Below, one piece after another: positions 4,580 to 29,993 of a stretch of 64,000 nt of DNA. Both the position numbers and the translations under genes were made by a program. Source of the DNA: Bacteroidaceae bacterium (GTDB lineage Bacteria > Bacteroidota > Bacteroidia > Bacteroidales > Bacteroidaceae); contig JAFTAJ010000034.1 of assembly GCA_017458585.1 (NCBI GenBank), positions 1 to 64,000 on the forward strand, written 5' to 3'. The first letter of the stretch is position 1. Every line of letters starts with the position of its first letter. The notes under the pieces were generated by a model. The model was not told the origin of the DNA and searched no databases. It saw nothing but the letters and a program-made list of their open reading frames with translations.

Positions 4580-4990
4580 ATGGAACCAAACAACCAAACA
4601 ACTAAACAACCAAACGACCAACAGAACCACGAATGGGCAGAAGAAGCCTTCTGGACCGGACATTGTCATTACCTAATGCAGGCATTGGCTCTCGCCATGC
4701 AGCGATGCCAAGTGTGGCGACTCACCGATACGGGCGATGTGTTTACACTCATCGAACTGTTCGATTTCGCTAAGGCATACGATAAGGAGCATCCATTAGA
4801 TGACAACCAGTTCTATCGCACCACCGTGGAAGGGGCTATCGGACTCTGCATGGGAGCCGAATACCTTACCAAGTGGCTCTTCACACCCATGGAGCCGGGA
4901 GCCATACGCGATGCATACCTGCAAGAACTGCAGGAGAAGCTCGACGAAATGGCTAAGGTAGAAGAAAACATAGAAAATGCTGTCGGTTGA
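4580..4990 (+). CDS. Family B protein without zinc ribbon
   Basis: 136 residues. Residues 28-110 match the N-terminal domain of the protein at 964-1557 (HYLMQALALAMQRCQVW; EGAIGLCMGAEYLTKWLFTPMEP), but the linker and zinc ribbon are missing. The N-terminus (EPNNQTTKQPNDQQN) is encoded by five ACCAAACA octamers right after the ATG, so the true start or ancestral N-terminus may be obscured. The end is a charged helix. It sits 15 bp after the second family A gene and overlaps the next gene by 14 bp. Function unknown. Confidence 0.75.
   Translation: MEPNNQTTKQPNDQQNHEWAEEAFWTGHCHYLMQALALAMQRCQVWRLTDTGDVFTLIELFDFAKAYDKEHPLDDNQFYRTTVEGAIGLCMGAEYLTKWLFTPMEPGAIRDAYLQELQEKLDEMAKVEENIENAVG
4585..4624 (+). 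repeat. Five ACCAAACA-type octamers at a gene start
   Basis: Period-8 array directly after the start codon of the 4580 gene, coding for a low-complexity Asn/Gln/Thr N-terminus that its paralogue lacks. Confidence 0.8.
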
Positions 4991-6923
4991 AAATCTGAAG
5001 GTCAAATTTAGCGTGGAGCCCCTGTTTGAAGGGGTGAGCTTTGTCGTGAACGACAAGGAGCGCGTATGCCTCGTGGGCAAGAACGGTGCCGGCAAGAGTA
5101 CGATGCTCAAAATCATCGCAGGCCTTCAGCAGCCCACCTCTGGCAGCGTGGCAATGCCGCAGGGCAGCACAGTGGGTTACCTGCCGCAAGTGATGCAGCT
5201 CGCCGACAGTTGTACACTGATCCAAGAGACAGAGAAGGCGTTCGCTGCACTGAAAGAGAAGGAGCAGCGTCTGGAGCGCATCAATCGCGAGCTGGCCAAC
5301 CGCACCGACTATGAGAGCGACGACTATGCACGCCTCATAGAGCAGAGCACCTCGTTGCAGGAACTGCTGCATATGGGCGGTGGCCAGAGCTGGCGTGCCG
5401 ACATGGAGCGGACTCTGATGGGCCTCGGCTTTGAGCGCACCGACTTCGATCGCCCCACGGCGGAGTTCAGCGGCGGATGGCGCATGCGCATAGAGCTCGC
5501 CAAGATACTGCTGCAACGCCCCGACGTGCTGCTGCTCGACGAGCCCACCAACCATCTCGACATTGAGAGTATCAGTTGGCTGGAGGACTTCTTGATTAAG
5601 GAGAGCAAGGCATCGGTGATTCTGGTGAGCCACGACCGTGCATTTCTTAATAACGTGTGCTCACGAACACTGGAGATTAGCTGCGGACAACTGATTGATT
5701 ATAAGGTAAAGTATGATGAGTTTGTTAAACTAAGGGCTGAACGCCGTGAGCAGCAGCTCCGCGCCTACGAAAACCAGCAGAAAGAGATAGCCGACACCAA
5801 GGCATTTATCGAGCGCTTCCGCTACAAGGCCACCAAGGCGGTGCAGGTGCAGAGCCGCATCAAGCAGCTCGCCAAGATAGTGCCCATCAAGATTGACGAG
5901 GTGGACAACAGCACACTCCATTTGCGCTTCAACGAGCCTACGCGCAGCGGCGACTTCCCATTAATCTGCGAGGAGGTAGGCAAGGCCTACGGCAGCCACC
6001 GCGTGTTTAGCGGCGTGAACCTCACCATACGGCGCGGCGAGAAGGTGGCCTTTGTGGGCCGCAACGGCGAAGGCAAGAGCACACTGGTGAAGTGCATCAT
6101 GGGCGAGATACCCTACGAGGGCAAGCTCACCGTGGGCCACAACGTGCAGATAGGCTACTATGCACAAAACCAGGCTCAGCTGCTCGACGATAGCCTGACA
6201 GTGTACGACACCATCGACCGCGTAGCCACAGGCAACGTGAGACTCAAGATACGCGAACTGCTCGGCGCCTTCATGTTTGGCGGCGAACAGAGCGACAAGC
6301 GTGTGAAGGTGCTCAGCGGTGGAGAACGTAGCCGACTGGCCATGCTCAAGCTGCTGCTGGAGCCCATGAACTTCCTCATCCTCGACGAGCCCACCAACCA
6401 CCTCGCCATGCGCACGAAGGACGTGCTCAAGGAGGCCCTGCTCCACTTCAAGGGCACGGTGATAGTGGTGAGCCACGACCGAGACTTCCTCGACGGACTG
6501 GTGAGCCGAGTGTATGCCTTCGGCGGAGGAAAGGTGAGAGAGCATCTGGGGGGAATATATGACTACCTCAACGGAGAATGGAAGAATGGAAGAATGGAAG
6601 AATGGAAGAATGAGAAAATGGAAGAACGCAAGTCCGACTTCAATCCTTCAATCCCTCAATCCTTCAATGGCAAAAATGACTACGAGCAGCAGAAGGAGCA
6701 GCGCAAGAGAGTGAACAAACTCGAAAAACAGATAAAGGAGGCGGAGCAGCGCATCGGCGAACTGGAGGCGGCCATCAAGGTTATTGAGAGCCGCATGAAC
6801 ACTCCAGAGTTCGCCTGCGACCTAAGCATGATGGAGAAGCACATGTCCTTCAGCCGACAACTCAGCGAGGCTATGGATGAGTGGACTGCGGCGAGCGAGG
6901 AATTGGAAACCTTGAACTCTTGA
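4977..6923 (+). CDS. ABC-F family ATPase (ribosome-associated, Uup/EttA-like)
   Basis: 648 residues, two ATPase cassettes and no membrane segments. Cassette 1 has Walker A GKNGAGKST (~34-42), signature FSGGW, and Walker B LLLDEPTNHLD. Cassette 2 has GRNGEGKST, LSGGERSRL and LILDEPTNHLA. The inter-cassette linker is helical and basic (ERREQQLRAYENQQKEIADT), as expected for the P-site tRNA interaction motif. A C-terminal coiled coil (NKLEKQIKEAEQRIGELEAA) resembles Uup/ABCF3-type tails. Family role: cytosolic translation factors acting at the ribosomal E site. Oddities: the D-loop Asp of cassette 2 is Ala477 (GCC for GAC), and two tandem-repeat insertions lie between cassette 2 and the coiled coil (6576-6670). 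The stop lies inside a CTTGAAC-type repeat. Confidence 0.93.
   Translation: MLSVENLKVKFSVEPLFEGVSFVVNDKERVCLVGKNGAGKSTMLKIIAGLQQPTSGSVAMPQGSTVGYLPQVMQLADSCTLIQETEKAFAALKEKEQRLERINRELANRTDYESDDYARLIEQSTSLQELLHMGGGQSWRADMERTLMGLGFERTDFDRPTAEFSGGWRMRIELAKILLQRPDVLLLDEPTNHLDIESISWLEDFLIKESKASVILVSHDRAFLNNVCSRTLEISCGQLIDYKVKYDEFVKLRAERREQQLRAYENQQKEIADTKAFIERFRYKATKAVQVQSRIKQLAKIVPIKIDEVDNSTLHLRFNEPTRSGDFPLICEEVGKAYGSHRVFSGVNLTIRRGEKVAFVGRNGEGKSTLVKCIMGEIPYEGKLTVGHNVQIGYYAQNQAQLLDDSLTVYDTIDRVATGNVRLKIRELLGAFMFGGEQSDKRVKVLSGGERSRLAMLKLLLEPMNFLILDEPTNHLAMRTKDVLKEALLHFKGTVIVVSHDRDFLDGLVSRVYAFGGGKVREHLGGIYDYLNGEWKNGRMEEWKNEKMEERKSDFNPSIPQSFNGKNDYEQQKEQRKRVNKLEKQIKEAEQRIGELEAAIKVIESRMNTPEFACDLSMMEKHMSFSRQLSEAMDEWTAASEELETLNS
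6576..6670 (+). repeat. GAATGGAA octamers, then CAATCCTT octamers, inside ABC-F gene
   Basis: About six GAATGGAA-type units (6576-6625), then about 3.5 CAATCCTT-type units (6641-6670). Both keep the frame and encode a Trp/Lys/Glu/Met-rich then Ser/Pro/Phe-rich stretch between ATPase cassette 2 and the C-terminal coiled coil. Confidence 0.85.
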
Positions 6924-6950: not shown

Positions 6951-8987
6951 ATGAAACTAATTATGACTTTAACACTGGCGGCTGCGATGACAACGGCCGT
7001 AGCTCAAAACGATGAGCACCCACATGGCATTGACGTTAACAACCTTGACAAGAGCGAGGCACCCGGCACCGACTTCTACCGCTATGCGGTGGGCGGATGG
7101 CAGGACAGCCACCCGCTGGACGACGAATACGCCCGCTTCGGCTCCTTCCATGTGCTCGACGAGATGAACAACGCCCGCATACGAGGCATCATAGAGGAGC
7201 TCGCCAAGGAGTGGCACGCCCCCGACACCAACGAGGGCAAGATAGCCAAGCTATACAACATGGCGATGGATATGGACGCACGCAACAAGGCCGGCATTGA
7301 GCCCATAATAGACTTCGTGAAGGAGATAGACCGCAAGAAAAGCAAGGAGGCACTCATCAACATAGTGCCGCTGATGATGCTCTGGCACACCGACTGCTTC
7401 TTCAACGTCTTTGTGGAGGCCGACGCCAAGAACAGCACTGAGAACCTGGTGCAGCTCTACCAGGGTGGCACCACACTCGGCGAGAAGGAATACTACCTCG
7501 ACGAGGACGAGCACACACTCGCCATACGCAAGGCATACCGCGAGTTTGGAACAAAGGTATTCAAGATGATCTTCCCCAGCCTCAGCGACGAAGAGGCGCT
7601 TGCCAAGATGAACACCGTGGCGCGACTGGAGACACGCCTCGCCACGGCCTTCAAGACCAAAGCCCAGCTGCGCATAGCCGAGGAGAACTACAACAAGATA
7701 CCCGTGTCGCAACTGCAGAAAGACTACCCCGCCGTTGACTGGGTAAAAATGTTCTTCGACGTAGCCCAATTCCCCTACTTCGACCAGATATGCGTGGGAC
7801 AGCCCGAAGCCACCAAGGCCGCGTGCCAAATGATTGAAGACGAGAGCCTCGACGACCTGAAGACATACATGATATTCCGCTTCGCCGCCGACAACCTCAG
7901 CCTATGCGGAGAGGAGCAGGTGAACCTCTCGTTCGACTTCTTCGGCCGCACCCTCTCTGGCCGCCAGAGCCTCCAGCCGCTGTGGAAACGTGCCGTCAAC
8001 ACCGTCAACGGACTGCTGGGCGAGGCCGTAGGACAGATATATGTGGAGAGATACTTCCCCGAGAGCGCCAAGCAGCGCATGGAGCAGCTGGTAGAGAACC
8101 TTCGCACCGCTCTGGGCGAGCGCATCATGGCGCAGAAATGGATGAGCCCCAAGACAAAGATCAAGGCCATGGAGAAACTCAGCACCTTCTACGTCAAGAT
8201 TGGATACCCCAACAAATGGCGCGACTACAGAGGCTTCGACTTCAACAAACCCACCAACTTCATGGACGCCGTGCTGGTGGGACGGGCACTCAACACAGTG
8301 CTCGACATCACCGAGACGGTGGGCAAGCCCGTAGATAGGGATAAATGGTACATGACGCCGCAAACGGTCAACGCCTACTACAACCCGCCCACCAACGAGA
8401 TATGCTTCCCCGCTGGCATACTGCAGTACCCCTTCTTCGACCCCGAGGCCGACGATGCGTTTAACTATGGTGCCATTGGAGTGGTGATAGGCCACGAGAT
8501 GACACACGGCTTCGACGACCAGGGCCGCAAGTTCGACAAGGACGGCAACATGACCGACTGGTGGACAACGAAAGACGAGAAAGGCTTCAACACCCAGGCG
8601 CAGAGGATGGTGGACTTCTACAACAACATCAATGTGCTGCCCGACCTCAAAGCCAATGGCTCATTGACGCAGGGCGAGAACCTCGCTGACCACGGCGGTC
8701 TGATGGTGGCATTCCAAGCGCTTAAAAACGCCACCAAGGGACAGCCCGAGAAGACCATCGATGGCTTCACCGACGACCAGCGTTTCTTCCTCGCCTACGC
8801 CGGAGTGTGGGCTGGCAACATACGCGAGGCAGAGATACGACGCCTCACAAAGGCTGACCCCCACTCGCTCGCCCAATGGAGAGTGAACGGAGCACTGCCC
8901 CACATCGACGCGTGGTACAAAGCATTTGGTATAACCGAAAAAGACCCCCTCTTCGTGCCCAAAGCCAAGAGAGTTACGGTGTGGTAG
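6951..8987 (+). CDS. pepO: M13 family zinc endopeptidase (PepO/neprilysin-like)
   Basis: 678 residues with a signal peptide (MKLIMTLTLAAAMTTAVAQ), so secreted or periplasmic; Bacteroidales homologues are often outer-membrane associated. The zinc site is H515-E516-M-T-H519 (HEMTHGFDDQGRKFD), with E576 and D580 in ENLADHGG as third ligand and supporting Asp. The substrate-binding NAYY motif is present (VNAYYNPPTNEICFPAGILQ) and the C-terminus ends VTVW as in M13 proteins (CxxW without the Cys). Length fits the family. It degrades peptides in nutrition or peptide scavenging. It stands between ABC-F and metA with no obvious functional link. Confidence 0.95.
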   Translation: MKLIMTLTLAAAMTTAVAQNDEHPHGIDVNNLDKSEAPGTDFYRYAVGGWQDSHPLDDEYARFGSFHVLDEMNNARIRGIIEELAKEWHAPDTNEGKIAKLYNMAMDMDARNKAGIEPIIDFVKEIDRKKSKEALINIVPLMMLWHTDCFFNVFVEADAKNSTENLVQLYQGGTTLGEKEYYLDEDEHTLAIRKAYREFGTKVFKMIFPSLSDEEALAKMNTVARLETRLATAFKTKAQLRIAEENYNKIPVSQLQKDYPAVDWVKMFFDVAQFPYFDQICVGQPEATKAACQMIEDESLDDLKTYMIFRFAADNLSLCGEEQVNLSFDFFGRTLSGRQSLQPLWKRAVNTVNGLLGEAVGQIYVERYFPESAKQRMEQLVENLRTALGERIMAQKWMSPKTKIKAMEKLSTFYVKIGYPNKWRDYRGFDFNKPTNFMDAVLVGRALNTVLDITETVGKPVDRDKWYMTPQTVNAYYNPPTNEICFPAGILQYPFFDPEADDAFNYGAIGVVIGHEMTHGFDDQGRKFDKDGNMTDWWTTKDEKGFNTQAQRMVDFYNNINVLPDLKANGSLTQGENLADHGGLMVAFQALKNATKGQPEKTIDGFTDDQRFFLAYAGVWAGNIREAEIRRLTKADPHSLAQWRVNGALPHIDAWYKAFGITEKDPLFVPKAKRVTVW

Positions 8988-9033
8988 AATTAGAAATTAG
9001 AAATTAGGAGTTAGGAATAAGGAGAGAGGAGTT
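8988..9033 (+). repeat. TTAGGAG-type heptamer array before metA
   Basis: Degenerate units (AATTAGA, AATTAGG, AGTTAGG, AATAAGG, GAGAGGA) fill the whole gap. The last unit runs into the metA start (GGAGTTATG). Confidence 0.85.
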
Positions 9034-9912: not shown

Positions 9913-9942
9913 ACATTGAACATTGAACATTGAATATTGAAA
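9908..9942 (+). repeat. Five ATTGAAC heptamers bridging metA and U32 peptidase
   Basis: Units: ATTGAAC x3, ATTGAAT, ATTGAAA. The first unit holds the metA stop (9910) and the fourth holds the TTG start (9930) of the next gene. Confidence 0.9.
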
Positions 9943-11786
9943 CTCGTGAAATAGAACTGCTGGCTCCTGCCCGCAATGCGGAGATAGGCATCGAGGCCAT
10001 CAACTGCGGAGCCGACGCTGTGTATATCGGTGCCGAGGCATACGGAGCAAGACATGCCGCCGGCAATAGCGTGAAGGATATCGCACGGCTGGCAGACTAT
10101 GCCCACCACTACGGAGCCAAGGTATATGTCACGGTCAACACCATACTCTATGACGGCGAGCTGCACGATGTGCGCCTCCTCATCGACCAACTGCACGACG
10201 CTGGTGTAGATGCACTGATAGTGCAGGATACTGCCCTGCTGACAATGGACCTGCCGCTGCCATTGCATGCCAGCACACAGATGGACATACGCACCGCCGA
10301 CAAGGTGAGGCAGCTCCACAGCTGGGGCTTTGAGCAGGCTGTGCTCGCTCGCGAGCTGGGACTGAAGGAGATGGCTGACATCCACCAGGCATGCCCCGAG
10401 ATGAAGCTGGAGGCCTTTGTGCACGGTGCCCTGTGCGTGAGCTACAGCGGTCGCTGTTATGCCTCGCAATACTGCTTCGGACGCAGCGCCAACCGCGGAG
10501 AGTGTGCCCAATTCTGCCGCCTCGCCTTCGACTTGGAAGACGCTCAGGGCAACATCATCGCAAGAAACAAACACCTCCTCTCACTCAAGGATATGAACCG
10601 CAGCCGCAACGTAGAGCAAATGCTCGACGCAGGCATCAGTTCACTCAAGATTGAGGGACGCCTCAAAGACATGGCGTATGTGAAAAACACCACTGCCTAC
10701 TACAGCCAACTGCTCGACAAGCTAATCAGCCGCAGGCCGCAAGACTACCGCCGCGCCTCCTACGGACAATGCCACACCACCTTCGAGCCCAATCTCGACA
10801 AGACCTTCAACCGAGGATTCACCGACTATTTCCTGCGCGGCAGAACCGAGGACGTAGCATCCATACATACGCCGAAAGCCGTGGGAGAGCCAGTGGGCAC
10901 AGTGAAGGAGATAAAAAACAACTACATACTTGTGAGCGGCACCAGCAGTTTCCACAACGGCGACGGCATCTGCTTCTTTGACGCTAACGGTACCCTGCAG
11001 GGATTTCGCGTCAACAGAGCCGACAACAACAAGCTCTATCCTCACCTCATGCCGCAGAGCCTTCAGGCAAAGACTCCCTTGTTTTGCAACCACGACGCAA
11101 CCTTAGAGACAGCCATGCTGCGCCCCACCCCACAGCGCACCGTTGGCATCAGCCTCAAGATAGAGGACACCGACGAGGGCTTCCGCCTCACCGCCACCAC
11201 ACAGCAGGGACACACCACCACACTCGATGTAAAAGCCGAACACCAGTCCGCCATCAAGCCGCAGACCGACAGGATAGTTGCAGAACTGAGCAAGACGGGC
11301 GGCACGGGATATGAGGTGACTGAGGTGACAACCCATTTTTCCAAAGACTACTTCATCCCTGCATCCATGCTGGGACAGTGGAGAAGAGAATTGATTGAAA
11401 AAGTGCGAGAGTCAGAAAGTGAGAGAGCCCAAAAGTCAATGCTCAATCCTCAATCTTCAATCCTCAATCTTCAATATTCAATGCTCAATGCCCCCTTTAC
11501 AGAAAACATCTCCAACCGCGCAGCACGCCAGTTCTACGAAGAGCATGGCGCCAAAGAGATAGAGCCCGCATTCGAGATTTCATTGCCAAAAGGCAATGTA
11601 ACATTGATGACTTGTCGCCACTGCATAAAATATTCCTTAGGATTATGCGTTAAATATGATAGGAACAACAAATCTCAATTCCCAAATCTCAATTCCCAAA
11701 TCTCCCTGGTGCTGCCCGACGGCCGACGCTTCCCTCTGGAGTTTGACTGCCATAAGTGCGAGATGAGAGTAACTGCAAAGATATAG
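9930..11786 (+). CDS. Peptidase U32 family protein (collagenase-like / YegQ/RlhA type)
   Basis: 618 residues. TTG 9930 is chosen because the frame closes at 9924 and the family normally begins just before ELLAPA. Family signatures: ELLAPARNAEIGIEAINCGA near the N-terminus; the cysteine-rich SYSGRCYASQYCFGRSANRGECAQFCR; and KIEGRLKDMAYVK. The four Cys of this core probably bind an Fe-S cluster, as in RlhA-type tRNA/rRNA hydroxylases, so RNA modification is as likely as proteolysis. A C-terminal beta domain follows, then a Cys-rich end (TCRHCIKYSLGLC, FDCHKCEMRV). Two in-frame insertions of short tandem repeats (11435-11490; 11670-11704) interrupt this C-terminal part. Confidence 0.9.
   Translation: MNIETREIELLAPARNAEIGIEAINCGADAVYIGAEAYGARHAAGNSVKDIARLADYAHHYGAKVYVTVNTILYDGELHDVRLLIDQLHDAGVDALIVQDTALLTMDLPLPLHASTQMDIRTADKVRQLHSWGFEQAVLARELGLKEMADIHQACPEMKLEAFVHGALCVSYSGRCYASQYCFGRSANRGECAQFCRLAFDLEDAQGNIIARNKHLLSLKDMNRSRNVEQMLDAGISSLKIEGRLKDMAYVKNTTAYYSQLLDKLISRRPQDYRRASYGQCHTTFEPNLDKTFNRGFTDYFLRGRTEDVASIHTPKAVGEPVGTVKEIKNNYILVSGTSSFHNGDGICFFDANGTLQGFRVNRADNNKLYPHLMPQSLQAKTPLFCNHDATLETAMLRPTPQRTVGISLKIEDTDEGFRLTATTQQGHTTTLDVKAEHQSAIKPQTDRIVAELSKTGGTGYEVTEVTTHFSKDYFIPASMLGQWRRELIEKVRESESERAQKSMLNPQSSILNLQYSMLNAPFTENISNRAARQFYEEHGAKEIEPAFEISLPKGNVTLMTCRHCIKYSLGLCVKYDRNNKSQFPNLNSQISLVLPDGRRFPLEFDCHKCEMRVTAKI
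11435..11490 (+). repeat. Eight TTCAATC-type heptamers inside U32 gene
   Basis: Units GTCAATG, CTCAATC, CTCAATC, TTCAATC, CTCAATC, TTCAATA, TTCAATG, CTCAATG; 56 nt read through as a Ser/Leu/Asn/Gln-rich stretch. Confidence 0.9.
11670..11704 (+). repeat. Alternating AAATCTC/AATTCCC heptamers inside U32 gene
   Basis: Five heptamers in a 14-bp period, encoding a Ser/Gln/Pro/Asn stretch between the CxxC motif and the final beta segment. Confidence 0.85.
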
Positions 11787-11789
11787 ACC

Positions 11790-12758
11790 ATGAGACACGC
11801 GACAAGATATATATGGCTGATAATCACTGCGCTATGCGTGCTTGCCTCATGTTCCTACCAAAGCACGGAGCACAACAACAAGTGGACTCTCACGCAGAGC
11901 CAGAGAGACTCCATCGCGTTCTCTACCTATCACCACTACAACGTAGGGTACAATTTTCTATGCATCGCCGACAGCATGCTACTCGGCTCCCACCCTGAGG
12001 GCACAGACCTCAAGCTCGACTATCCCCATGAGGATGTATATCTATACGAAGACGATGACTTCGTGGTAACTGAGATATTCCGCAACCCAAATGTCACCAA
12101 GACATCCATCGACAGCATCTGGCTGTGCGTAGGCTCCGACGGTATCCCCCTCGGCTGGATAAGCGAATATGACCTACATCACAACTCTACGCCCGTAGAT
12201 CCCATCTCGCGGTTTATGGCGTTTTGTGGTAACCTTCGCGACAAACTCTTATCTGGATGGATAGGAAAGAATTTTATAATCTTCCTATTAATATATCTCA
12301 TATTGATTCAGATAAAAAAACAAAATCTTATTCTAATAAAACAGACTGAAAGGTCAATATACACCTATCTCTTCTGGTTCTCTGCTGTAAGTGCCGGCAC
12401 TATTTATGCCACGATAAAATGCCTTACACCGGAAATGTGGGAAGAATTCTATTACCATCCCTCGCTAAACCCTGTGGGCCAGCCACCAATGATTGCTCTC
12501 TACCTATCGCTGATGTGGCTGAACATCATATTCTACATAGCCATCTTCTTCGACCTAAAAGACAGAGTCTCATTAGGTAAGACACTATTAATAATGACTT
12601 TGGCTGCAATAATCGGAATATGTTTTTATATTTGCTTAGCGGCACTTAAGGAAATATTTCTTATCTACGGAATTTACATAATCCTTGTAGCTGCATTAGC
12701 TGCATTCGTATGGAATTACTTAGAATCAAAGAAAAAATGCAAACAAAAATCACAATAA
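11790..12758 (+). CDS. Lipoprotein with SH3-like domain and C-terminal membrane segments
   Basis: 322 residues. It begins with a lipoprotein-type signal (ITALCVLASC). Residues ~30-140 look like a bacterial SH3-like region (DYPHEDVYLYEDDDFVVTEIF..., IWLCVGSDGIPLGWISEYDL). Four hydrophobic segments follow (FIIFLLIYLILI, YLFWFSAVSAGTIYAT, MIALYLSLMWLNIIFYIAIFF, LLIMTLAAIIGICFYICL and a last one near 290-312), then a Lys-rich tail. An SH3-like head on membrane helices suggests wall or envelope sensing, but I cannot name a function. It overlaps the next gene by 22 bp. Confidence 0.75.
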   Translation: MRHATRYIWLIITALCVLASCSYQSTEHNNKWTLTQSQRDSIAFSTYHHYNVGYNFLCIADSMLLGSHPEGTDLKLDYPHEDVYLYEDDDFVVTEIFRNPNVTKTSIDSIWLCVGSDGIPLGWISEYDLHHNSTPVDPISRFMAFCGNLRDKLLSGWIGKNFIIFLLIYLILIQIKKQNLILIKQTERSIYTYLFWFSAVSAGTIYATIKCLTPEMWEEFYYHPSLNPVGQPPMIALYLSLMWLNIIFYIAIFFDLKDRVSLGKTLLIMTLAAIIGICFYICLAALKEIFLIYGIYIILVAALAAFVWNYLESKKKCKQKSQ

Positions 12759-13168
12759 ACGACTGCGCCATCATCGACCTGCCCACATTCACCGACCAGC
12801 GTGGCTGTCTCACCCTCGTTGACAACAATGCCGTAACTCAGTTGCTACCTTTCAAGCCCGCCCGGATATTCTGGATATATGGCACCACCCCCTCCACGGT
12901 GCGCGGCCAACATGCCCACCGCAGCTGCTGGGAAATGGTATGTGCCGTCAGTGGCAGTTTCCGCCTCACCCTCAACGATGGCAGGGAAGAGAAGACATTC
13001 ATGCTCGACTCTCCCTGCAAGGGCGTGATTATTCCGCCGATGGTGTGGTGTCGCCTCTACGACTTCGCCCCTGGCACCGCATGCCTTGCCCTCGCTTCCG
13101 ACGACTATGACGCCGAAGGCTACATCAATGATTTCGAACAGTTTAAAAACGACACAAGCAATGATTAA
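12737..13168 (+). CDS. fdtA: FdtA/WxcM-like sugar 3,4-ketoisomerase (cupin)
   Basis: 143 residues from ATG 12737 (an upstream in-frame ATG at 12710 lies inside the previous gene). Single cupin: RGQHAHRSCWEM holds the catalytic His pair, SGSFRLTLNDG and SPCKGVIIPPMVWCRLYDF the second barrel motif, then LALASDDYDAEGYINDF. The family converts dTDP-4-keto-6-deoxyglucose to the 3-keto isomer for dTDP-3-amino-3,6-dideoxyhexoses. The aminotransferase two genes downstream would be the next enzyme. No dTDP-glucose synthesis genes lie in this window. Confidence 0.88.
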   Translation: MQTKITINDCAIIDLPTFTDQRGCLTLVDNNAVTQLLPFKPARIFWIYGTTPSTVRGQHAHRSCWEMVCAVSGSFRLTLNDGREEKTFMLDSPCKGVIIPPMVWCRLYDFAPGTACLALASDDYDAEGYINDFEQFKNDTSND

Positions 13169-14117
13169 GGCTACCAGATACACGGCACAGATGGCCGACA
13201 AATGGGATGAGTTTGTCAGCAAGGCCCGCAACTCCACGCTACTGCATCGGCGAGGATACATGGACTATCACGCCGACCGTTTCCAAGACGCATCGCTGGT
13301 CTTCACCGACGAGCAAGACAATATCGTGGCTCTGCTCCCTGCATGCCTCAGCCGCGACGACAACAAGACTATCGTCTCCCACCAAGGACTTACATACGGC
13401 GGCTTTATTGTAGAGCCGCTCACGCATACCTTTGTCATAGAGCAAGTATTTGATGCCGCCATCGCCTACTATAGGACACAGATGCAGGCCACTAGCCTGG
13501 TCATAAAACACATACCTTATATATATAGTTCTCAGGCCAGCGACGAGGAACTCTATTTCATCCACAGCCACGGAGGGCAACTCATTGAGCGCGGACTAAG
13601 CCAGACCATTGATCTGTCGCGACCGCTGCCTCTCAACTATCTTCGCCGTCGATGCCTCAACAAGGCGCAGCATGACAACCTCAAAGTCATTGTCGCCAAT
13701 CAGCGAGAGGAGTGGGACCGCTACCACCCGTTGCTTAGCAGCTGTGTGGAGCGACACGGCTTTAAGCCCGTGCACAATGCTGACGAACTGTGGTTGCTCC
13801 ATAGCCGTTTCCCAGACGAGATATTGCTATACGGCACATACAAGGATCACCAGTTGCTCGCCGGCGCAGTAGTATATCTTTCCCCCAATGTGGCACACGC
13901 CCAGTATCTCGCTGTGTCGGATGTGGGCAAGAAATGCGGTGCCCTCGACCTTGCCATCATGACAGCCATCACCGACCAACGCATCAGCCATTGCCGCTAC
14001 TTCGACTTCGGCATCTCCACTGAGCGCGACGGCTCTCTCAACCATGGGCTTACACTACAAAAAGAAGGCTTCGGCGCACGTGGCGTATGCTACGACATAT
14101 ACAAGATGACACTATGA
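13161..14117 (+). CDS. FemAB/GNAT-like acyltransferase
   Basis: 318 residues. ATG 13161 overlaps the isomerase stop. The N-terminal half (IKATRYTAQMADKWDEFVS, LHRRGYMDYHADRF, LVFTDEQDNIVALLPA, HQGLTYGGFIVEP) and a second domain with ILLYGTYKDHQLLAGAVVYL and HAQYLAVSDVGKKCGALDLAI form the doubled GNAT fold of FemAB-like transferases. In a sugar operon it probably acylates the amino sugar made by FdtA and the DegT enzyme, filling the role that FdtC has elsewhere; that is inferred from position. It overlaps the next gene by 4 bp (ATGA). Confidence 0.8.
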   Translation: MIKATRYTAQMADKWDEFVSKARNSTLLHRRGYMDYHADRFQDASLVFTDEQDNIVALLPACLSRDDNKTIVSHQGLTYGGFIVEPLTHTFVIEQVFDAAIAYYRTQMQATSLVIKHIPYIYSSQASDEELYFIHSHGGQLIERGLSQTIDLSRPLPLNYLRRRCLNKAQHDNLKVIVANQREEWDRYHPLLSSCVERHGFKPVHNADELWLLHSRFPDEILLYGTYKDHQLLAGAVVYLSPNVAHAQYLAVSDVGKKCGALDLAIMTAITDQRISHCRYFDFGISTERDGSLNHGLTLQKEGFGARGVCYDIYKMTL

Positions 14118-15226
14118 ACATACCATTCCTTGACCTCGGCAATGTCAACGGCCTATTGCAGACCGAGATAGAGCAGGCCGCCCTCCGCGTCATACGCTCA
14201 GGGCAATATCTCTACGGCGACGAGATTCAGAACTTCGAGCAACAATGGGCCGCCGCCAATGGCGCTGCCTATTGTGTCAGCACAGCCAATGGCCTCGATG
14301 CGCTCACCGCAGCACTGCACTGCCTCAAGGCACTGTGCCACTGGCCCGATGGCAGCGAGGTGATAGTCAGTGCCCACACATTCATAGCCTCCTTCGAAGC
14401 CATCACCCGCTGCAACCTCAAGCCGGTACCTTGCGATGTGACTCCCCACGACTACAACATTGACTGCAACAAAATAACCGCGCTCATCAATGCCAACACG
14501 GTGGCCATCATGCCAGTGCATATCTATGGGCGACCTTGCGACATGCCCACTATCAAAGCAATAGCCGACCATCACAACCTGCGCATCATCACCGACTCCT
14601 GCCAGATGCATCGTCAATCTTCAATCTTCAATTTTCAATCTTCAATAAATTCTGATGTCACCGCGTTCAGCTTCTACCCTGCAAAGAATATGGGAGCTTT
14701 TGGCGATGCAGGATGTCTGGTGACAGACAACAACGAGCTGGCAGACCTCGCAAGAGCATACTGCAACTACGGGGCAACGGTGAAATATCATCATGAGATA
14801 AAGGGCATCAACTCCCGCATGGACTCAGTGCAAGCCGCGATACTGAGTGTAAAACTATCGCACCTTGACGAACAAAACAAACTGCGCCAAGCTCAGGCTC
14901 TGCGCTATAACCAAGGCATCAGCAATCCTTTGGTCAGTCTGCCTTACGGAGGACAAGACGTCGACCAATCATGCTGGCATGTCTATCCCGTGTTCTGCGA
15001 CAAGCGCCAGCAACTACAGCAGTGGCTTTCCTCTCATGGAGTTGGCTCCATTATCCACTACCCCATCCCGCCACACAAACAAAAGGCGTACGCAGAACTC
15101 AATGACCTTACCCTACCCGTGACCGAGCATATTTGCAACACTGAGCTGAGCCTCCCGCTTAATCCTGCACTCACTGCAGAGCAACAAGATTACATTATCG
15201 ACGTGCTCAACAAATTCACAGCCTAA
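14114..15226 (+). CDS. DegT/DnrJ/EryC1/StrS sugar aminotransferase (FdtB-like)
   Basis: 370 residues, PLP-dependent. Recognised by NIPFLDLG start, TANGLDALTAAL, MPVHIYGRPCDM, the cofactor-contacting D161-S-C-Q164 and the Schiff-base Lys191 in FSFYPAKNMGAFGDAG, then NYGA...GINSRMDSVQAAIL. It would transaminate the 3-keto sugar made by the FdtA-like enzyme. Oddity: the loop that normally reads HGA.Y.G...G between DSCQ and SFYP.K is replaced by a sequence coded by five TTCAATC heptamers (14613-14647), directly beside the PLP site. Confidence 0.92.
   Translation: MNIPFLDLGNVNGLLQTEIEQAALRVIRSGQYLYGDEIQNFEQQWAAANGAAYCVSTANGLDALTAALHCLKALCHWPDGSEVIVSAHTFIASFEAITRCNLKPVPCDVTPHDYNIDCNKITALINANTVAIMPVHIYGRPCDMPTIKAIADHHNLRIITDSCQMHRQSSIFNFQSSINSDVTAFSFYPAKNMGAFGDAGCLVTDNNELADLARAYCNYGATVKYHHEIKGINSRMDSVQAAILSVKLSHLDEQNKLRQAQALRYNQGISNPLVSLPYGGQDVDQSCWHVYPVFCDKRQQLQQWLSSHGVGSIIHYPIPPHKQKAYAELNDLTLPVTEHICNTELSLPLNPALTAEQQDYIIDVLNKFTA
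14613..14647 (+). repeat. Five TTCAATC heptamers in aminotransferase active-site loop
   Basis: Units GTCAATC, TTCAATC, TTCAATT, TTCAATC, TTCAATA lie between codons for DSCQMH and SDVTAFSFYPAK and take the place of a normally conserved Gly-rich loop. Confidence 0.9.
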
Positions 15227-15241
15227 GTTCTCTGCACACAG

Positions 15242-16042
15242 ATGTCTCTGACAATCAATATATTGATATCTACTATCGGTGAGCGCATAAAGCGTGTGCC
15301 TAATGTTGCTATGCCGCCATGCGAGGGAGTGACATACATCGTCTCCCACCAGACGGACGGCTCGCACCCTGTGCCGCCAGAACTGACGAATCGCAGCGAT
15401 GTCACACTGACCACCATCGCAGGTCGCGGACTCAGTGCCAATCGCAACAATGCCATCGCCCACGCCACAGCCGACATCTGTATCATAGCTGATGACGACT
15501 GCATGTATGACCAACAATGTCTGAAAACCATAACCGACTCATACAGCAAATACCCCAAGGCCGACATTATCTGTTTCACCGCACAAGACTACGACTCACA
15601 GCCACTGCGCCACTACCCTGCCGAGGATATGCCTTACCTGCAGGCTGTCGAGCAAGGGTATTACCCCGCAAGCATCCAGATAACCTTTCGTCGCCACTCT
15701 GTAGCGGGACACATAGTCTTCAACACCAACTTCGGACTAGGCTCTGCCCTGCTCTGTGCAGGTGAAGAAGAGGTCTTTATTGCCGATGCGCTGCAGGCAG
15801 GACTAAACATAATGTATGTCAATCAACCAATCGTACGCACAGATCCCGACACCACAGGCACTCATTTCCTCACCAACCCTCAGCTGCAGATAACCAAGGG
15901 AGCCACCTTCCGCCATTGCTACGGCTACACCAACGCTCTATGGCGTTCCATCAAGGAGGCCGGCTGGTGGTTTGTCCATCGCAGAGCAAACCCATTCCCT
16001 ATCTTTTGCAGAATGCTCAAGGGCGTTAGGCTCAAATTTTAA
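15242..16042 (+). CDS. Family 2 (GT-A) glycosyltransferase
   Basis: 266 residues, no membrane segment. GT-A features: LTINILISTIGER start, GLSANRNNAIAHATADICIIADDDC with the metal-binding Asp cluster, and a C-terminal acceptor region (FGLGSALLCAGEEEVFIADALQAG, with the Gly-x-x-x-E-E-D-like element). It lies 15 bp after the aminotransferase, so it may transfer the amino sugar made by the operon, perhaps onto O-antigen or a capsule. Donor and acceptor cannot be read from the sequence. Confidence 0.85.
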   Translation: MSLTINILISTIGERIKRVPNVAMPPCEGVTYIVSHQTDGSHPVPPELTNRSDVTLTTIAGRGLSANRNNAIAHATADICIIADDDCMYDQQCLKTITDSYSKYPKADIICFTAQDYDSQPLRHYPAEDMPYLQAVEQGYYPASIQITFRRHSVAGHIVFNTNFGLGSALLCAGEEEVFIADALQAGLNIMYVNQPIVRTDPDTTGTHFLTNPQLQITKGATFRHCYGYTNALWRSIKEAGWWFVHRRANPFPIFCRMLKGVRLKF

Positions 16043-16051
16043 TATCCAACT

Positions 16052-17578
16052 ATGAACAGACTGATTGCCTTATACAACCAACTCTACGGCTCACAGCCTA
16101 CTGTCACACCTATCACCGGCTCCGGCAGTCCCCGACAATATTACCGACTGACTGACGACAAGCATTCTGCCATCGGCACCATCGGCACGTCGCATGAGGA
16201 GAACCGAGCCTTTATTGGCCTGACAAAGCATTTTGAGAGCAAGGGGCTGCCAGTGCCCCATATCCTCGGTGTGAGTCCTGACGGCATGGCGTATATCCAG
16301 AGCGACCTCGGCAGCACCGCGCTCTACGACGCTCTCAGCAATGGGCGCAACAGCGGTAGCTACTCAGCCGAAGAGCAACAGCTGCTGCACAAGGCAATGA
16401 CTATGCTGCCACGCTTCCAGATACTTGGCGCTCAGGACCTTGACACGAGCCTCTGCTACCCCACCCCCACCATGGATAGCATGAGCATAATGTTTGACCT
16501 CAACTATTTCAAATACTGTTTCCTCAAGCTACAACCCGAAATAGAGTTCAACGAGATTGCGCTGCAGCACGACATGGAGCATCTGTGCGCAGCTCTTGCC
16601 GACCTCACCGCTCAGGCGGTAAACGAGCCCACCCTTATGCTGCGCGACTTCCAGGCCAGAAACATTATGCTCAATGGTCAATTGTCAATGGTCAACGGTC
16701 AACGGTCAATGGTCAATGGTCAATTAAATATGTCCCTCATCGACTATCAAGGCAGCCGTCTCGGTCCTGCGGAATATGACCTCGCCTCCTTCCTATGGCA
16801 AGCCTCAGCACATTATGGCTCAGCCCTGCGCAACGCACTGATCGACACCTACATACAAGCAGCCAATGAACTACGTCCTACTGACGGCGCCACCCTCCGA
16901 CAGCGTCTCCGACTGATGGTGTTCTTCCGCCTGCTGCAGGTACTCGGTGCATACGGCTACCGCGGACTCCATCAGCGCAAGCCCCATTTCCTCAACTCCA
17001 TCCCCCCTGCTCTCTCCAGCCTCCACGACACCCTCGCCACTGGCATAGCAGACCAATACCCATACCTCAAGTCACTCCTCACTCAACTCACTCACTCCTC
17101 ACTCCTCACTCAACTCACTCACTCCTCACTCCTCCCTCCTCACTCCTCACTCAACTCACTCACTCCTTCCTCCTTAACTATTACTATTTACAGCTTCAGC
17201 TACAAGCGCGGCATACCCGACGACCCCTCAGGCAACGGCGGCGGCTATGTCTTTGACTGCCGCTCCGCTCACAACCCCGGTCGGTACGAGCAATACAAAT
17301 GCTTCACGGGGTTAGACCAGCCGGTGATAAAGTTTCTGGAAGACGACGGCGAGATACTCACCTTCCTCAGCCATATCTATCCGTTGGCGGAGCAGCATGT
17401 GGAGCGCTATATCAGTCGCGGATTCACCAGTCTGATGTTCTGCTTCGGCTGCACGGGCGGCCAGCACCGCAGCGTATATTGCGCCCAGCACCTTGCCGAG
17501 CATCTGCACTCTCTCTATCCGCAAATAACGATCAGGCTCATCCATCGCGAGCAGGGTATCAACAGCGAAATGAATTGA
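16052..17578 (+). CDS. Sugar kinase-like phosphotransferase fused to RapZ C-terminal domain
   Basis: 508 residues. Residues 1-335 are an APH/AmgK-type kinase fold: Gly-rich TPITGSGSPRQYYRL, catalytic D199/N204 (LRDFQARN) and metal-binding D231 (LIDYQG). Such proteins phosphorylate cell-wall amino sugars such as N-acetylmuramate at C1. Residues ~380-508 match the RapZ C-terminal domain (YSFSYKRGIP, VFDCRSAHNPGR, TGLDQPV, GCTGGQHRSV), which in E. coli RapZ senses glucosamine-6-phosphate. Joining an amino-sugar kinase to it suggests control by wall precursors (inference). Heptamer arrays lengthen the loop between N204 and D231 (26 residues) and form the linker between the domains. Confidence 0.9.
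   Translation: MNRLIALYNQLYGSQPTVTPITGSGSPRQYYRLTDDKHSAIGTIGTSHEENRAFIGLTKHFESKGLPVPHILGVSPDGMAYIQSDLGSTALYDALSNGRNSGSYSAEEQQLLHKAMTMLPRFQILGAQDLDTSLCYPTPTMDSMSIMFDLNYFKYCFLKLQPEIEFNEIALQHDMEHLCAALADLTAQAVNEPTLMLRDFQARNIMLNGQLSMVNGQRSMVNGQLNMSLIDYQGSRLGPAEYDLASFLWQASAHYGSALRNALIDTYIQAANELRPTDGATLRQRLRLMVFFRLLQVLGAYGYRGLHQRKPHFLNSIPPALSSLHDTLATGIADQYPYLKSLLTQLTHSSLLTQLTHSSLLPPHSSLNSLTPSSLTITIYSFSYKRGIPDDPSGNGGGYVFDCRSAHNPGRYEQYKCFTGLDQPVIKFLEDDGEILTFLSHIYPLAEQHVERYISRGFTSLMFCFGCTGGQHRSVYCAQHLAEHLHSLYPQITIRLIHREQGINSEMN
16669..16724 (+). repeat. Eight GGTCAAT-type heptamers between kinase catalytic motifs
   Basis: Units GCTCAAT, GGTCAAT, TGTCAAT, GGTCAAC x2, GGTCAAT x3. They encode the repeated MVNGQ phrase between catalytic Asn204 and metal-binding Asp231. 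Confidence 0.92.
17072..17175 (+). repeat. CTCACTC heptamer array forming interdomain linker
   Basis: About 100 nt of CTCACTC/CTCAACT/CTCCTCA variants encode a Thr/Ser/Leu/His-rich linker between the kinase and RapZ-like domains. Confidence 0.9.
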
Positions 17579-20489: not shown

Positions 20490-23030
20490 TTATTCTTCAT
20501 TATCAGATTCTTCCTGGAACTCCTGGAACTCTCCTTGAACTCCTTGAACTTCCTCACCGTCCTCCGGCTCTGCCTCCACGTGGCATACTGAGGAGATGGT
20601 GTCGTTGCGCTTTGCGATATCAATTATCTTCACGCCCTGGGTGATGCGGCCCTGCACACTTATGCTCTTCACGGGCACACGGATGGCGGTACCGCTCTTG
20701 TTGATCACTACGAGGTCGTTCTCGTCGTGTACCAGCAGTATGGCTACCAGTTTGCCGGTCTTCTCGGTGATGTTGATGGTCTTCACACCCTTGCCGCCAC
20801 GGCCGGTCAGGCGGTAGTCCTCTATAAGCGAGCGCTTGCCTATACCGTTCTCCGACACTACGAGTATCGTGCTCTGCATATCCTGTGCCCATGCGCAGAT
20901 CATGCCTACCACCTCGTCGTCCGCTCCGTCCAGCGTCACGCCCTTCACACCGGTGGCGTTGCGGCCCATGGCGCGTACCTTGCTCTCGTTGAAGCGGATG
21001 GCCCTACCGTTGCGTGTGGCGATTACTATCTCGCTGCTGCCATCGGTCAGCGATACGCTAACGATGGAGTCGTCTTCCCTGATGTTGATGGCGTTCACAC
21101 CGTTAGCCCTCGGGCGTGAGTAGTCGGTCAGCACGGTCTTCTTTATCACACCCTTCTTCGAGCAGAAGGTGATGTAGTGGGTGCGGCAGAACTCCTCGTC
21201 CTTGAGGTTCTGCACATGTATCATCGTGTTCAGCGAGTCGTCGCCCGGAATGTTCAGCAGGTTCTGTATCGCACGCCCCTTGGAGTTCTTCACTCCCTCG
21301 GGCACCTCATACACCTTCAGCCAGTAGCAGCGGCCTTTCTGGGTGAAGAAGAGCAGCGTGTCGTGCATATTGGCGCGATACACCTTGTCTATAAAGTCCG
21401 CGTCGCGCGTTGATGACAGCTTGCTGCCTATGCCGCCGCGACCTTGGGCATGGAACTCGCTCAGCGGAGTGCGCTTGATGTAGCCCAGATGGCTGGTCGT
21501 TATCATCATCGGGTCGTTGGCAAAGAAGTCCTCGGGATTGAAGTTGTCGGCCTCGCCCGGCATTATCTCCGTCAGGCGCGGTGTAGCGTACTTCTCCTTC
21601 ACCTCCATCAGCTCGTCCTTGATGACCTTCTTACACAGCTCGTCGTCGGTCAGTATGCGGTTGTAATAGTCTATCTTACGCATCAGTTCTTCAAACTCTT
21701 CATGCAGCTGCTCCTGACGCAGACCTGTCAGCTGGGCCAGACGCATATCCACGATTGCCTTGGCCTGTATTTCATCCAGGTCAAAGCGCTTCATCAGAGC
21801 CTCAATGGCATCCTGCGGTGTCTTCGATGCGCGGATCAGACGAACCACCTCGTCAATGTTGTCGCATGCAATGATGAGACCCTCTATGATGTGGGCCCTC
21901 TCCTGAGCCTTGCGCAGGTCAAACTTTGTGCGGCGTATCACCACGTCGTGACGGTGCTCTATGAAGTACTTGATGCAGTCCTTCAGCGTCAGCAGACGCG
22001 GACGGCCGTGAACCAACGCAATATTATTCACACTGAACGAGCACTGCAGGTCAGTCAGCTTGAGCAGCTTGTTGAGCACCACGTTGGCGTTCGCATCGCG
22101 CTTCACATCCACCACGATGCGCATACCCTCGCGGCCTGTCTCGTCGTTCACGTTGCTGATGCCTATCACCTTTTTCTCGTTCGAGAGCATGGCTATCTTC
22201 TTTATCAGCTCAGCCTTGTTTACGCCGTAGGGTATCTCCGTTATCACGATGGCAGAGTGAGTGCCCAGGTCTTCTATCTCATAGCGGGCACGCATCACCA
22301 CGCGGCCCTTGCCTGTAGCGTAAGCGTCTTTCACTCCCTGCAGACCGCAGATAATGCCTCCTGTGGGGAAGTCGGGGGCGGGGATGTACTGCATCAGCTC
22401 ATCCACTGTGATGTCGGGGTTATCTACGTATGCCACGCAGCCGTCTATCACCTCGCCCAGGTTGTGGGTGGGCACGTTGGTGGCCATACCTACGGCGATA
22501 CCCGTGGCACCGTTCACCAGGAAGTTGGGTATGCGCGTCGGCATCACCGTCGGCTCCTGGGTGGAGTCGTCAAAGTTGTTGCGCATATCCACCGTCTCCT
22601 TGTCGAGGTCCTGCATCATCGCCTCGCCCAGCAGGCTGAGGCGCGCCTCAGTGTAACGCATGGCGGCTGCAGAGTCGCCGTCCACCGAGCCGAAGTTACC
22701 GTGACCGTCCACCAGCACCTCGCGCATATTCCATGGCTGCGCCAGGCGCACCAGGGCACCATATACCGAAGAGTCTCCGTGGGGATGATACTTACCGAGC
22801 ACCTCACCCACTATACGGGCGCACTTCTTGTAAGGGCTGTTATGCGTGTTGCCAATGCCCAGCATACCATAGAGGATACGGCGGTGCACAGGCTTGAAGC
22901 CATCCCTTACGTCGGGCAACGCACGCGCCACGATAACCGACATGGAGTAATCGATGTAGCTGCTCCGCATCTCGCGGTTCAGATCCACTTTTATTATCCT
23001 GTCGTTGTTCAGATTTTGTGTTTCGTCCAT
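20490..23030 (-). CDS. gyrA: DNA gyrase subunit A
   Basis: 846 residues. Breakage-reunion domain with the catalytic Tyr126 (AAAMRYTEARLS) and the quinolone-determining stretch HPHGDSSVYGALVRLAQPW. The C-terminal beta-pinwheel carries the gyrase box QGRGGIGSK and later GRGGKGVKT and QGRITQGVK blade motifs, which separates GyrA from ParC. The position of E. coli Asp87 is Gly91; Ser83 is kept (Ser87). The acidic tail (EVQGVQGEFQEFQEESDNEE) is coded by CTTGAACTC/CTGGAACTC-type tandem repeats (20507-20560). Forms A2B2 with GyrB to introduce negative supercoils. Confidence 0.97.
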   Translation of the reverse strand: MDETQNLNNDRIIKVDLNREMRSSYIDYSMSVIVARALPDVRDGFKPVHRRILYGMLGIGNTHNSPYKKCARIVGEVLGKYHPHGDSSVYGALVRLAQPWNMREVLVDGHGNFGSVDGDSAAAMRYTEARLSLLGEAMMQDLDKETVDMRNNFDDSTQEPTVMPTRIPNFLVNGATGIAVGMATNVPTHNLGEVIDGCVAYVDNPDITVDELMQYIPAPDFPTGGIICGLQGVKDAYATGKGRVVMRARYEIEDLGTHSAIVITEIPYGVNKAELIKKIAMLSNEKKVIGISNVNDETGREGMRIVVDVKRDANANVVLNKLLKLTDLQCSFSVNNIALVHGRPRLLTLKDCIKYFIEHRHDVVIRRTKFDLRKAQERAHIIEGLIIACDNIDEVVRLIRASKTPQDAIEALMKRFDLDEIQAKAIVDMRLAQLTGLRQEQLHEEFEELMRKIDYYNRILTDDELCKKVIKDELMEVKEKYATPRLTEIMPGEADNFNPEDFFANDPMMITTSHLGYIKRTPLSEFHAQGRGGIGSKLSSTRDADFIDKVYRANMHDTLLFFTQKGRCYWLKVYEVPEGVKNSKGRAIQNLLNIPGDDSLNTMIHVQNLKDEEFCRTHYITFCSKKGVIKKTVLTDYSRPRANGVNAINIREDDSIVSVSLTDGSSEIVIATRNGRAIRFNESKVRAMGRNATGVKGVTLDGADDEVVGMICAWAQDMQSTILVVSENGIGKRSLIEDYRLTGRGGKGVKTINITEKTGKLVAILLVHDENDLVVINKSGTAIRVPVKSISVQGRITQGVKIIDIAKRNDTISSVCHVEAEPEDGEEVQGVQGEFQEFQEESDNEE
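20507..20560 (-). repeat. 9-bp tandem repeats encoding the GyrA acidic tail
   Basis: On the plus strand CTGGAACTC appears twice, then CTTGAACTC-type units; read in the gene's direction they give Gln/Glu/Phe/Gly repeats at the extreme C-terminus, where GyrA tails vary in length. Confidence 0.75.
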
Positions 23031-29006: not shown

Positions 29007-29090
29007 GGAATGAGAAATTAGGAATTAGGAGTTAGGAGTTAGGAGTTAGGAATTAGGAGTTAGGAGTTAGGAATTAGAAATGAGAGTGAG
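29006..29090 (+). repeat. Long TTAGGAG heptamer array before radC
   Basis: At least ten units of AATTAGG/AGTTAGG/AATGAGA, ending in the unit that carries the radC ATG (29080). Confidence 0.9.
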
Positions 29091-29845: not shown

Positions 29846-29878
29846 AAAACGATAACGAAAACAAGAAAAACTATCGTC

Positions 29879-29964
29879 GAGCGAAGCGGTAACTTCGAGG
29901 AGCTGAAAGCTCCGATAACTTCTGAGCGCGAAGCGCGGTAACTTCTGAGCGAAGCGATAACTAC
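29879..29964 (+). repeat. Four-unit array of GAA-triloop hairpins followed by ATAACTTCT
   Basis: Units at 29879-29896, 29897-29923, 29924-29946 and 29947-29964. Each starts GA, has a small stem with loop GAA, and ends (G)RTAACTTC(T). The stems differ but stay complementary: GGAGCT/AGCTCC in unit 2, GCGC/GCGC in unit 3, GC/GC in units 1 and 4. It lies 30 bp before the next start codon and could act in the 5' leader as RNA. Confidence 0.7.
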
Positions 29965-29993
29965 TTAAGAAAATGAAAATTATATTATAAGGT

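Follow-up and report, generated by a model that had tools for sequence, protein, structure and literature searches.

The 64,000-nt stretch analyzed here (the window) corresponds to positions 1 to 64,000 of contig JAFTAJ010000034.1 in the assembly GCA_017458585.1 of a Bacteroidaceae bacterium, a draft genome of 2.40 Mb in 47 contigs that is 92.5% complete and in which the window is contig C23. Between positions 11435 and 17175, three genes coding for a U32-family peptidase, a DegT/DnrJ/EryC1 aminotransferase and an APH-type kinase fused to the C-terminal domain of RapZ carry five genuine tandem arrays, with units of 7, 14 or mixed length, all of which are read in frame (Table 1). Array coordinates come from Tandem Repeats Finder (TRF) and direct reading of the sequence, and the translations were compared with those of relatives. 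For the U32 gene, the nearest named relatives are two metagenome-assembled genomes of yak-rumen Bacteroidaceae, RGIG10102 and RGIG10237.

In an alignment of the U32 protein, the residues encoded by the array at 11436 are not found in G012, L008, L010 (Prevotella/Prevotellaceae) or L014 (Tannerellaceae), while the same site in the relative G009 holds TCAATGT/TCAATGC units. The U32 protein of Prevotella RGIG3601 (L007 3001-4929) has a repeat-like stretch, SPLTSHHSPLTSHLSPLTF, at a position that differs from those of the window arrays. At the DegT site G009 has TCAATGG in the same TCAA register, the free bases being mostly CT in the source genome and GG in G009, which looks like homogenisation inside an inherited array. 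The array-bearing DegT loop is one residue longer than in G012 and G007, where there is no array, and four and five residues longer than in G013 and G010, respectively; the alignment with the solved homologue 7n63 differs by one residue at the array site. The kinase loop exceeds that of G009, where an array is also present, by 21 bp, and those of relatives without an array by 42 bp (G013 and G001) or 45 bp (G016 and G007). Both the DegT and the kinase loops adjoin what we take to be active-site motifs. Finally, the array in the linker between kinase and RapZ shows a higher-order repeat whose 27-bp unit is divisible by three; the same linker holds TCAACTC/TCAACTA in G016 and a palindromic element in G007.

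Such arrays are abundant well beyond this locus. In a sample of 701,091 bases, about 29% of the genome, TRF (score 40, period up to 12) identified 285 tandem arrays, or 407 per Mb, period 7 accounting for 152 of them and period 8 for 46; a single first-order Markov control of equal size gave none. According to a purpose-written gene caller (88% coding, start codons rough), called genes hold 99 of the 285 arrays, 80 in the interior, 9 at the 5' end and 10 at the 3' end. A further 22 lie at gene edges and 164 are intergenic, and these 186 fall in 12% of the sequence, a density 13.7 times higher outside genes than inside. The arrays do not cluster, as 19 of 277 gaps between neighbours are within 60 bp, against 32 expected.

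Comparison with relatives of the same genus indicates that the arrays are mostly late additions to older genes. In the U32, ABC-F, DegT, kinase-RapZ, A2M and IleRS (isoleucyl-tRNA synthetase) proteins, array-free homologues do not carry the same residues at the same sites, an observation that would have counted against insertion. No array is present in the ABC-F linker of the five relatives compared. The IleRS gene of the sample (C34 49415-49463) contains TTAGGAA/TGAGGAR words from residue 761 on, between the domains tRNA-synt_1 (end 727) and Anticodon_1 (start 782). Among 15 aligned relatives, 14 share one short linker length without an array, and G007 has a longer, different stretch; the linker DNA measures 78 bp in G009, G013, G001, G012, G010 and G005, 93 bp in G007, and 96 bp with the array in the source genome. 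Between genes, the array at 30308 is a clean insertion with respect to G009 and G013.

Within genes, the net gain with respect to relatives that have no array is smaller than the array: +18 bp for 49 bp in IleRS, +3 to +15 for 37 bp in DegT, +9 to +12 for 33 bp and +15 for 31 bp in A2M, and +33 to +45 for the 58 bp of the kinase array, G012 excepted. Old loop sequence thus seems to have been partly overwritten, either by replacement at the origin of the array or by later loss of neighbouring residues.

Sites may also change their word between sister species. Reading the A2M loop at 35586 by eye, we observed GTCAAGA in the source genome, a degenerate TCAATCG in G013, a short TCTCAATT in G009, two TCAAT units in G001, a TTAGGAG/TGAGGAG mosaic in G016 and nothing in G007; under a strict automatic score none of the five relatives has an array there, and this turnover is a reading by eye and not a count. 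In the second A2M loop (36321), G001 has no array and G016 has AACAGGG and TCAAATC. Over the five array-rich relatives, the strict score finds an array in 7 of 37 comparisons at in-gene window sites (3 with the same word, 4 with another), and in 3 of 39 at intergenic or edge sites (none with the same word, 3 with another; 0 of 9 in G009). The corresponding values are 0 of 10 in the array-free G012 and 0 to 2.6% in random 80-nt windows; 46 of 132 site-by-genome comparisons were dropped because flanks did not match or the gap was odd or over-long. Most window arrays are hence private to the source genome among the genomes compared, and the word found at a given site can differ from one sister species to another.

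A second, palindromic and G/C-rich element was observed in frame in the same linkers of sister species, with readings such as SPLKGE and PPLTPPKGE and with CTGGCGCCAG in several. It occurs in G007 (RapZ, L137; ABC-F, L162; IleRS, L198), G016 (ABC-F and U32, L160) and G009 (IleRS, L194).

Table 1. Genes and tandem arrays of the window; arrays are listed with their host gene or surroundings.
Feature	Position	Strand	Basis or context
TCAATGG/TCAATTG array	2383-2414	+	second half of predicted signal peptide (MKKLFLFLLTALMVNCQWSIVNAQ, by eye)
8-bp array AACCAAAC	4584-4621	+	very start of small open reading frame
two nearby 8-bp arrays (AGAATGGA; CTTCAATC)	6575-6668 (6575-6626, 6638-6668)	+	linker ahead of ABC-F C-terminal domain
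TTAGAAA/TTAGGAG array, intergenic	8987-9023	+	CATTGAA array at same place in G016
U32 peptidase-family gene (Peptidase_U32 and DUF3656)	9930-11786	+	Pfam, orthologues; hosts two arrays
imperfect 16-bp repeat	11398-11436	+	TRF; abuts array 11436-11489 on its 5' side; similar repeat in L003 (G009)
array of TCAATNN units (SMLNPQSSILNLQYSMLN), in frame	11436-11489	+	U32 linker preceding NISN
14-bp array CAAATCTCAATTCC, in frame	11669-11704	+	U32, ahead of LVLPDGRR; stretch variable among relatives
DegT/DnrJ/EryC1 aminotransferase gene	14087-15226	+	Pfam
TCAATCT array, in frame	14610-14646	+	DegT loop between D-x-CQ and AFSFYPxKN
APH-type kinase fused to RapZ C-terminal domain	16052-17578	+	Pfam
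TCAATGG array, in frame, 58 bp	16667-16724	+	kinase loop between RDFQARN and LIDYQG
TCACTCC/TCACTCA array, in frame	17072-17165	+	TRF; kinase-RapZ linker
weak 9-bp repeat	20510-20554	-	acidic C-terminal tail of gyrA
TTAGGAG/TTAGGAA array, intergenic	29002-29081	+	fills gap between two genes; contains stop codon of the first
GAAGAATT array, intergenic	30308-30354	+	53 bp between flanks vs 6 bp in G009 and G013
GTCAAGA array, in frame	35586-35618	+	A2M loop
TCAATGG array, in frame	36321-36351	+	second A2M loop
TTTGAGA array and short TTGAGGA stretch	46206-46285 (array 46256-46285)	-	C-terminal tail (..YYDLQGRRV..GLYIVNGK..) of 940-aa protein

A preliminary description of the window had proposed that the arrays enter genes without breaking their frames, and those starting at 2383, 4584, 6575, 6638, 11436, 11669, 14610, 16667, 17072, 35586, 36321 and 46256 are indeed open, by TRF and by reading. 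Two of the sites that it listed fit less well. The array at 4584 may lie before rather than inside its gene, DNA matches to this locus in G013 and G016 beginning only at 4622; the gyrA tail has only a weak 9-bp repeat, and its counterpart in G009 is of equal length without the repeat. The description had further stated that TTAGGAG, three units of which give a stop in every frame, never occurs inside a gene, and that the words found in genes are those open in the sense orientation. The arithmetic is right for a pure run and the absence holds in the window by reading, but mosaics escape the rule and the sample offers counterexamples. In a UvrD-type helicase gene (C3 1380-1519, UvrD domain 10-479), an array that begins at residue 69 contains ten exact copies of TTAGGAG. 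A radical SAM gene (C34 33037-33110, Radical_SAM_N 1-365), presumably of the YgiQ type, has five, starting at residue 206. In a C10 peptidase gene, TTAGGAA words lie close to the gene end, beyond the domain.

Words closed both ways are depleted from genes rather than absent. Those open in one direction only are open in the sense of the gene in 41 of 47 in-gene arrays, the six others having a leading word closed in that sense and a frame that is still open; words closed both ways make up 7 of 68 arrays in genes, compared with 41 of 130 outside them (p 8e-4). Both counts were made on arrays of periods 7 and 8. Words with a stop occur in 20 of 46 interior period-7 arrays, and in no array does a stop fall in the frame of the gene. 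When units were permuted in called genes, which are open by definition, none of 1000 permutations of the 140-bp helicase array kept the frame open, and 0.6% did so for the radical SAM array. All these counts are partly tautological, as a called gene has no in-frame stop by definition, and it is the domain homology around the arrays that brings independent support.

Because 7 equals 1 modulo 3, three units traverse all frames and a pure word gives the same peptide cycle in each, so that an open word stays open whatever the phase of insertion; later changes by one unit would shift the frame. Identity at a distance of 21 bp is above that at 7 and 14 bp, and this excess is larger in genes than between them (p 0.014). 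The filtering of in-gene arrays by purifying selection is supported by the sense bias, in contrast to the TTAGGAG-type arrays between co-directional genes, which point either way (9 and 9).

The vocabulary of the arrays is restricted. The 750 period-7 units fall into 142 word classes, of which a few dominate, and a TMAMY core is present in 58% of the units against 10% of random genomic heptamers, a contrast inflated by the core having been defined on these arrays. The commonest class, in genes and intergenic regions alike, has a fixed TCAAT core followed by two free bases. With arrays anchored on one TCAAT unit and mismatches taken on later units only, adjacent units differ at rates of 0.017, 0.008, 0.059, 0.059 and 0.076 over the core and of 0.412 and 0.218 at the last two bases (47 arrays, 119 pairs, p 1.7e-24; p 2.4e-10 for intergenic arrays alone). 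With other anchors (TCAA, AATG, GTCA, GGTC, TGGT), the sixth base is still the most variable in pooled counts and the seventh is less distinct where the anchor fixes it. In TTAG-type arrays, positions 2, 5 and 7 vary (TKAGRAR). A fixed core with free ends is not what uniform mutation plus slippage predicts, and it calls for some specific process of array generation.

Within the genus, array-rich genomes are concentrated in a single sub-clade, and the trait appears again in other genera. The pattern TCAMYNNTCAMYNNTCAMY matches 402 times in G000, 421 in G001, 364 in G009, 277 in G007, 208 in G016 and 109 in G013, whereas each of the remaining 13 genomes of the genus has between 0 and 11 matches. 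The reversed-pattern control is poor because it also matches TAACTNN, and our conclusions are based on how the genomes differ from one another. An IleRS tree of 16 sequences places the array-rich genomes that it includes, all but G016 and thus five, on one side of a branch with support 1.0, the array-free G012 being the next to branch off. Stretches sampled from G012 (38 kb) have no array, and 40 kb of G008 have one, of period 12. Other array-rich genera are g14 (G031 and G102, not G082), g17, g45, g47 and g54. Samples of G104 (20 kb) and G060 (12 kb) show no array, though their genome-wide pattern count is positive; both stretches sampled from G102 and one of the three from G031 are all N and thus uninformative.

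Preferred words differ between sister species and recur in other genera. TTAGRAR arrays match 150 times in G000, 170 in G016 and 65 in G007, 1, 8 and 5 times in G001, G009 and G013, and 74, 55 and 45 times in G102, G093 and G031. Among the matches listed, other genera show TCAATTY, TCACTYT, TCACCGY and others, the pattern itself requiring TCAMY.

We propose, with a probability of roughly one half, that a sub-clade of this rumen Bacteroidaceae genus combines local array making at a high rate with purifying selection. Short-period arrays, mostly of 7 but also of 8 and 9 bp, would be generated by local DNA synthesis, probably through recurrent slippage or a switch of template spanning a few bases, once some trigger had set off the trait. 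They would be built from a short list of preferred words, often at the cost of some old sequence, and within each array the free bases would become homogenised while the core is retained. Selection would tolerate nearly any word between genes, and in genes it would leave frame-open arrays in loops, inter-domain linkers, signal peptides and tails. The preliminary description had spoken of selection on random insertion: arrays are indeed added and filtered, but "random" is too weak a term for restricted words, a fixed core, overwriting and the re-use of sites.

Several points weigh against our proposal. Plain slippage predicts neither the shared vocabulary nor the fixed core. All comparisons are between species. 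The array-free kinase loop of G012 is 120 bp long, 9 bp longer than the 111 bp measured with the array, so that a longer loop does not by itself demonstrate insertion. The 21-bp order was measured on 17 arrays in genes and 18 between them. Lastly, no enzyme or gene loss among those examined (mutS1, Ku, reverse transcriptase) could be tied to the trait. Loss of mutS was discarded as a candidate, mutS1 being above cut-off in G000, G001, G007, G009, G013, G016, G031 and G034. Ku-dependent end joining was likewise discarded, with no Ku match in 115 genomes. A reverse transcriptase is found in G000 and G001 but also in the array-free G003, G010 and G012, and in none of the array-rich G007, G009, G013 and G016; these genomes are 77-93% complete, which makes absence weak evidence.

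The most serious competitor, which we hold to be possible though rather unlikely, is that ordinary slippage during replication started from chance seeds and that purifying selection then acted on the outcome, the words being nothing special. According to PMC4679880, heptanucleotides were the most abundant long-unit repeats in most of the genomes examined by Mrazek 2007, and the 21-bp difference between orthologous RapZ arrays and the 21-bp order in genes would fit slippage. It does not account for the dominance of a few word classes or for the fixed core and free ends described above, nor for TTAGRAR words in array-rich genomes of other genera alongside array-free species in the same genus.

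It is a little more doubtful that a trans-acting, sequence-specific array maker, either an enzyme or a changed polymerase, was gained or freed in the sub-clade, and independently in other Bacteroidales genera. Such a factor would anchor on the five-base core, add two loosely specified bases per cycle, and write heptamers into or over existing sequence. If this were true, it would feed new peptide stretches, including halves of signal peptides, into working proteins.

Copying of whole arrays from place to place as mobile cassettes appears improbable. It would fit the vocabulary common to many loci and the clean insertion at 30308. However, the exact 21- to 42-mers common to pairs of the 65 period-7 arrays of at least 35 bp are within the range of 30 unit shuffles, so that arrays look built locally from common words, and no target duplication was seen by eye. 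Still harder to sustain is the idea that the arrays are selected sites, such as protein or ribosome binding sites or insulators, as proposed for TAACTGA in Beggiatoaceae. TTAGGAG does contain AGGAG plus a stop, and the TCAAT core is kept outside genes, but TTAGGAG-type arrays between co-directional genes are oriented 9 with and 9 against gene direction, and the intergenic arrays are mostly private, the few found at the same sites in relatives never having the same word. Of the intergenic arrays of the TCAA type that lie between co-directional genes, 11 point with the genes and 23 against them.

We consider it very unlikely that these are contingency loci, in which gain or loss of a unit switches genes on and off. 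A unit length that is not a multiple of three would allow this, as one unit shifts the frame, but IleRS is among the hosts, the arrays are imperfect, the RapZ arrays of the source genome and G009 differ by 21 bp, and the 46 interior period-7 arrays tested are all open (partly by definition). An assembly artefact is scarcely credible: the source genome is a draft and the two nearest named relatives are metagenome assemblies, but the separately assembled G009 has in-frame arrays of the same word at the same loci (RapZ, A2M), and the pattern TCAMYNNTCAMYNNTCAMY occurs 49 times in G026, which consists of 3 contigs and is 99% complete.

Heptanucleotide arrays are already known, and what is new here is a family of words with a fixed core, their presence in internal, partly overwritten loops, and their turnover between sister species. 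The STRR heptanucleotides of Calothrix and Nostoc (Mazel 1990) are reportedly degenerate tandem heptamers spread over many loci, and the present arrays resemble these and long simple sequence repeats (Mrazek 2007, as cited in PMC4679880 and PMC4692102) in this respect: they occur at many loci far above chance and are enriched outside genes. Rickettsia palindromic elements are small repeats of defined length inserted in frame in proteins at tolerant places. The arrays share this mode of insertion but are tandem and of short unit rather than palindromic, and the palindromic element of sister species is closer to those of Rickettsia than the arrays are.

MacGregor 2015 (PMC4679880) describes TAACTGA direct repeats in Beggiatoaceae, some Cyanobacteria and five Bacteroidetes, and already argues that their placement is governed by stops in one orientation and that in-gene copies lie mainly at protein peripheries. 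Both systems consist of mostly intergenic heptamer arrays, and TAACTGA fits the TMAMY-NN form of ours. In contrast, one word dominates there and its single-base relatives are rarely repeated, whereas we see a word family, internal loops of conserved enzymes that are partly overwritten, and different words per site between species. The 30 commonest of the period-7 words listed here include many related words but not TAACTGA itself, and the direction towards the downstream start known for TAACTGA is not seen, TTAGGAG-type arrays being evenly split. Apart from the Bacteroidetes section of that paper, the literature listings searched contained nothing on arrays of this kind within the genes of Bacteroidales, whether from the rumen or elsewhere.

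The GGGNATC heptamers of Xanthomonas and Nostoc (Rehm 2015, PMC4692102) are similarly genome-wide, over-represented outside genes and with a free base in the consensus, a single one in their case; unlike the present arrays, they form G-quadruplexes and prefer four units. By eye, AACTCCC (6 units) is the one word with a G/C triplet among the 30 commonest of our period-7 words listed. Geobacter metallireducens has the heptanucleotide element GGGACCG at 49 places, tandem and both between and within genes like ours, but according to PMC2700814 it is one conserved four-unit element matched by BLAST and regarded by its authors as regulatory.

Short-unit arrays are usually regarded as intergenic clutter or on/off switches, while those described here alter loops of an essential enzyme (IleRS), of DegT and of the kinase, as well as signal peptides. 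The clade is young enough that species of the same genus still show the array-free site, and the coexistence in one genus of array-rich species and the array-free G012 makes a search for the cause practical. Annotators should be warned that stretches such as SMVNGQWSMVNGQ arise in these proteins from the translation of DNA repeats.

Of the 13 start-proximal arrays in the sample, five read by eye as encoding part of a signal peptide, for example MRYSLFTVLFSLFTVLSAQ. In relatives, nine more loci were picked for their likeness to the array at 2383, so that their share carries no information on frequency. Eight of them read as signal peptides of the MKK..LMVNGQWSMVNGQ type, three being orthologues of one gene, and the ninth has no suitable frame. 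Among the sister contigs compared, we found no orthologous proteins for the loci 2383, 4584 and 46206, and the 940-aa protein with the tail at 46206 has no Pfam match.

Elsewhere in the window, an interspersed repeat of about 100 bp (CGAGCGAAGCG..) lies at 29864-29979, directly past a TTAGGAG array at 29776; G009 has several copies, none of them in the orthologous gap. An imperfect 21-bp intergenic repeat, of a different kind, was identified by TRF at 37708-37751. The 170-bp 3' end of the gene 38033-39589 (39404-39576) matches many contigs of relatives and is probably a shared C-terminal domain of secreted proteins. Finally, among the viral contigs L223-L245, exact three-unit runs of TCAATGG occur in 8 stretches and of TTAGGAG in 15, with five places in L241.

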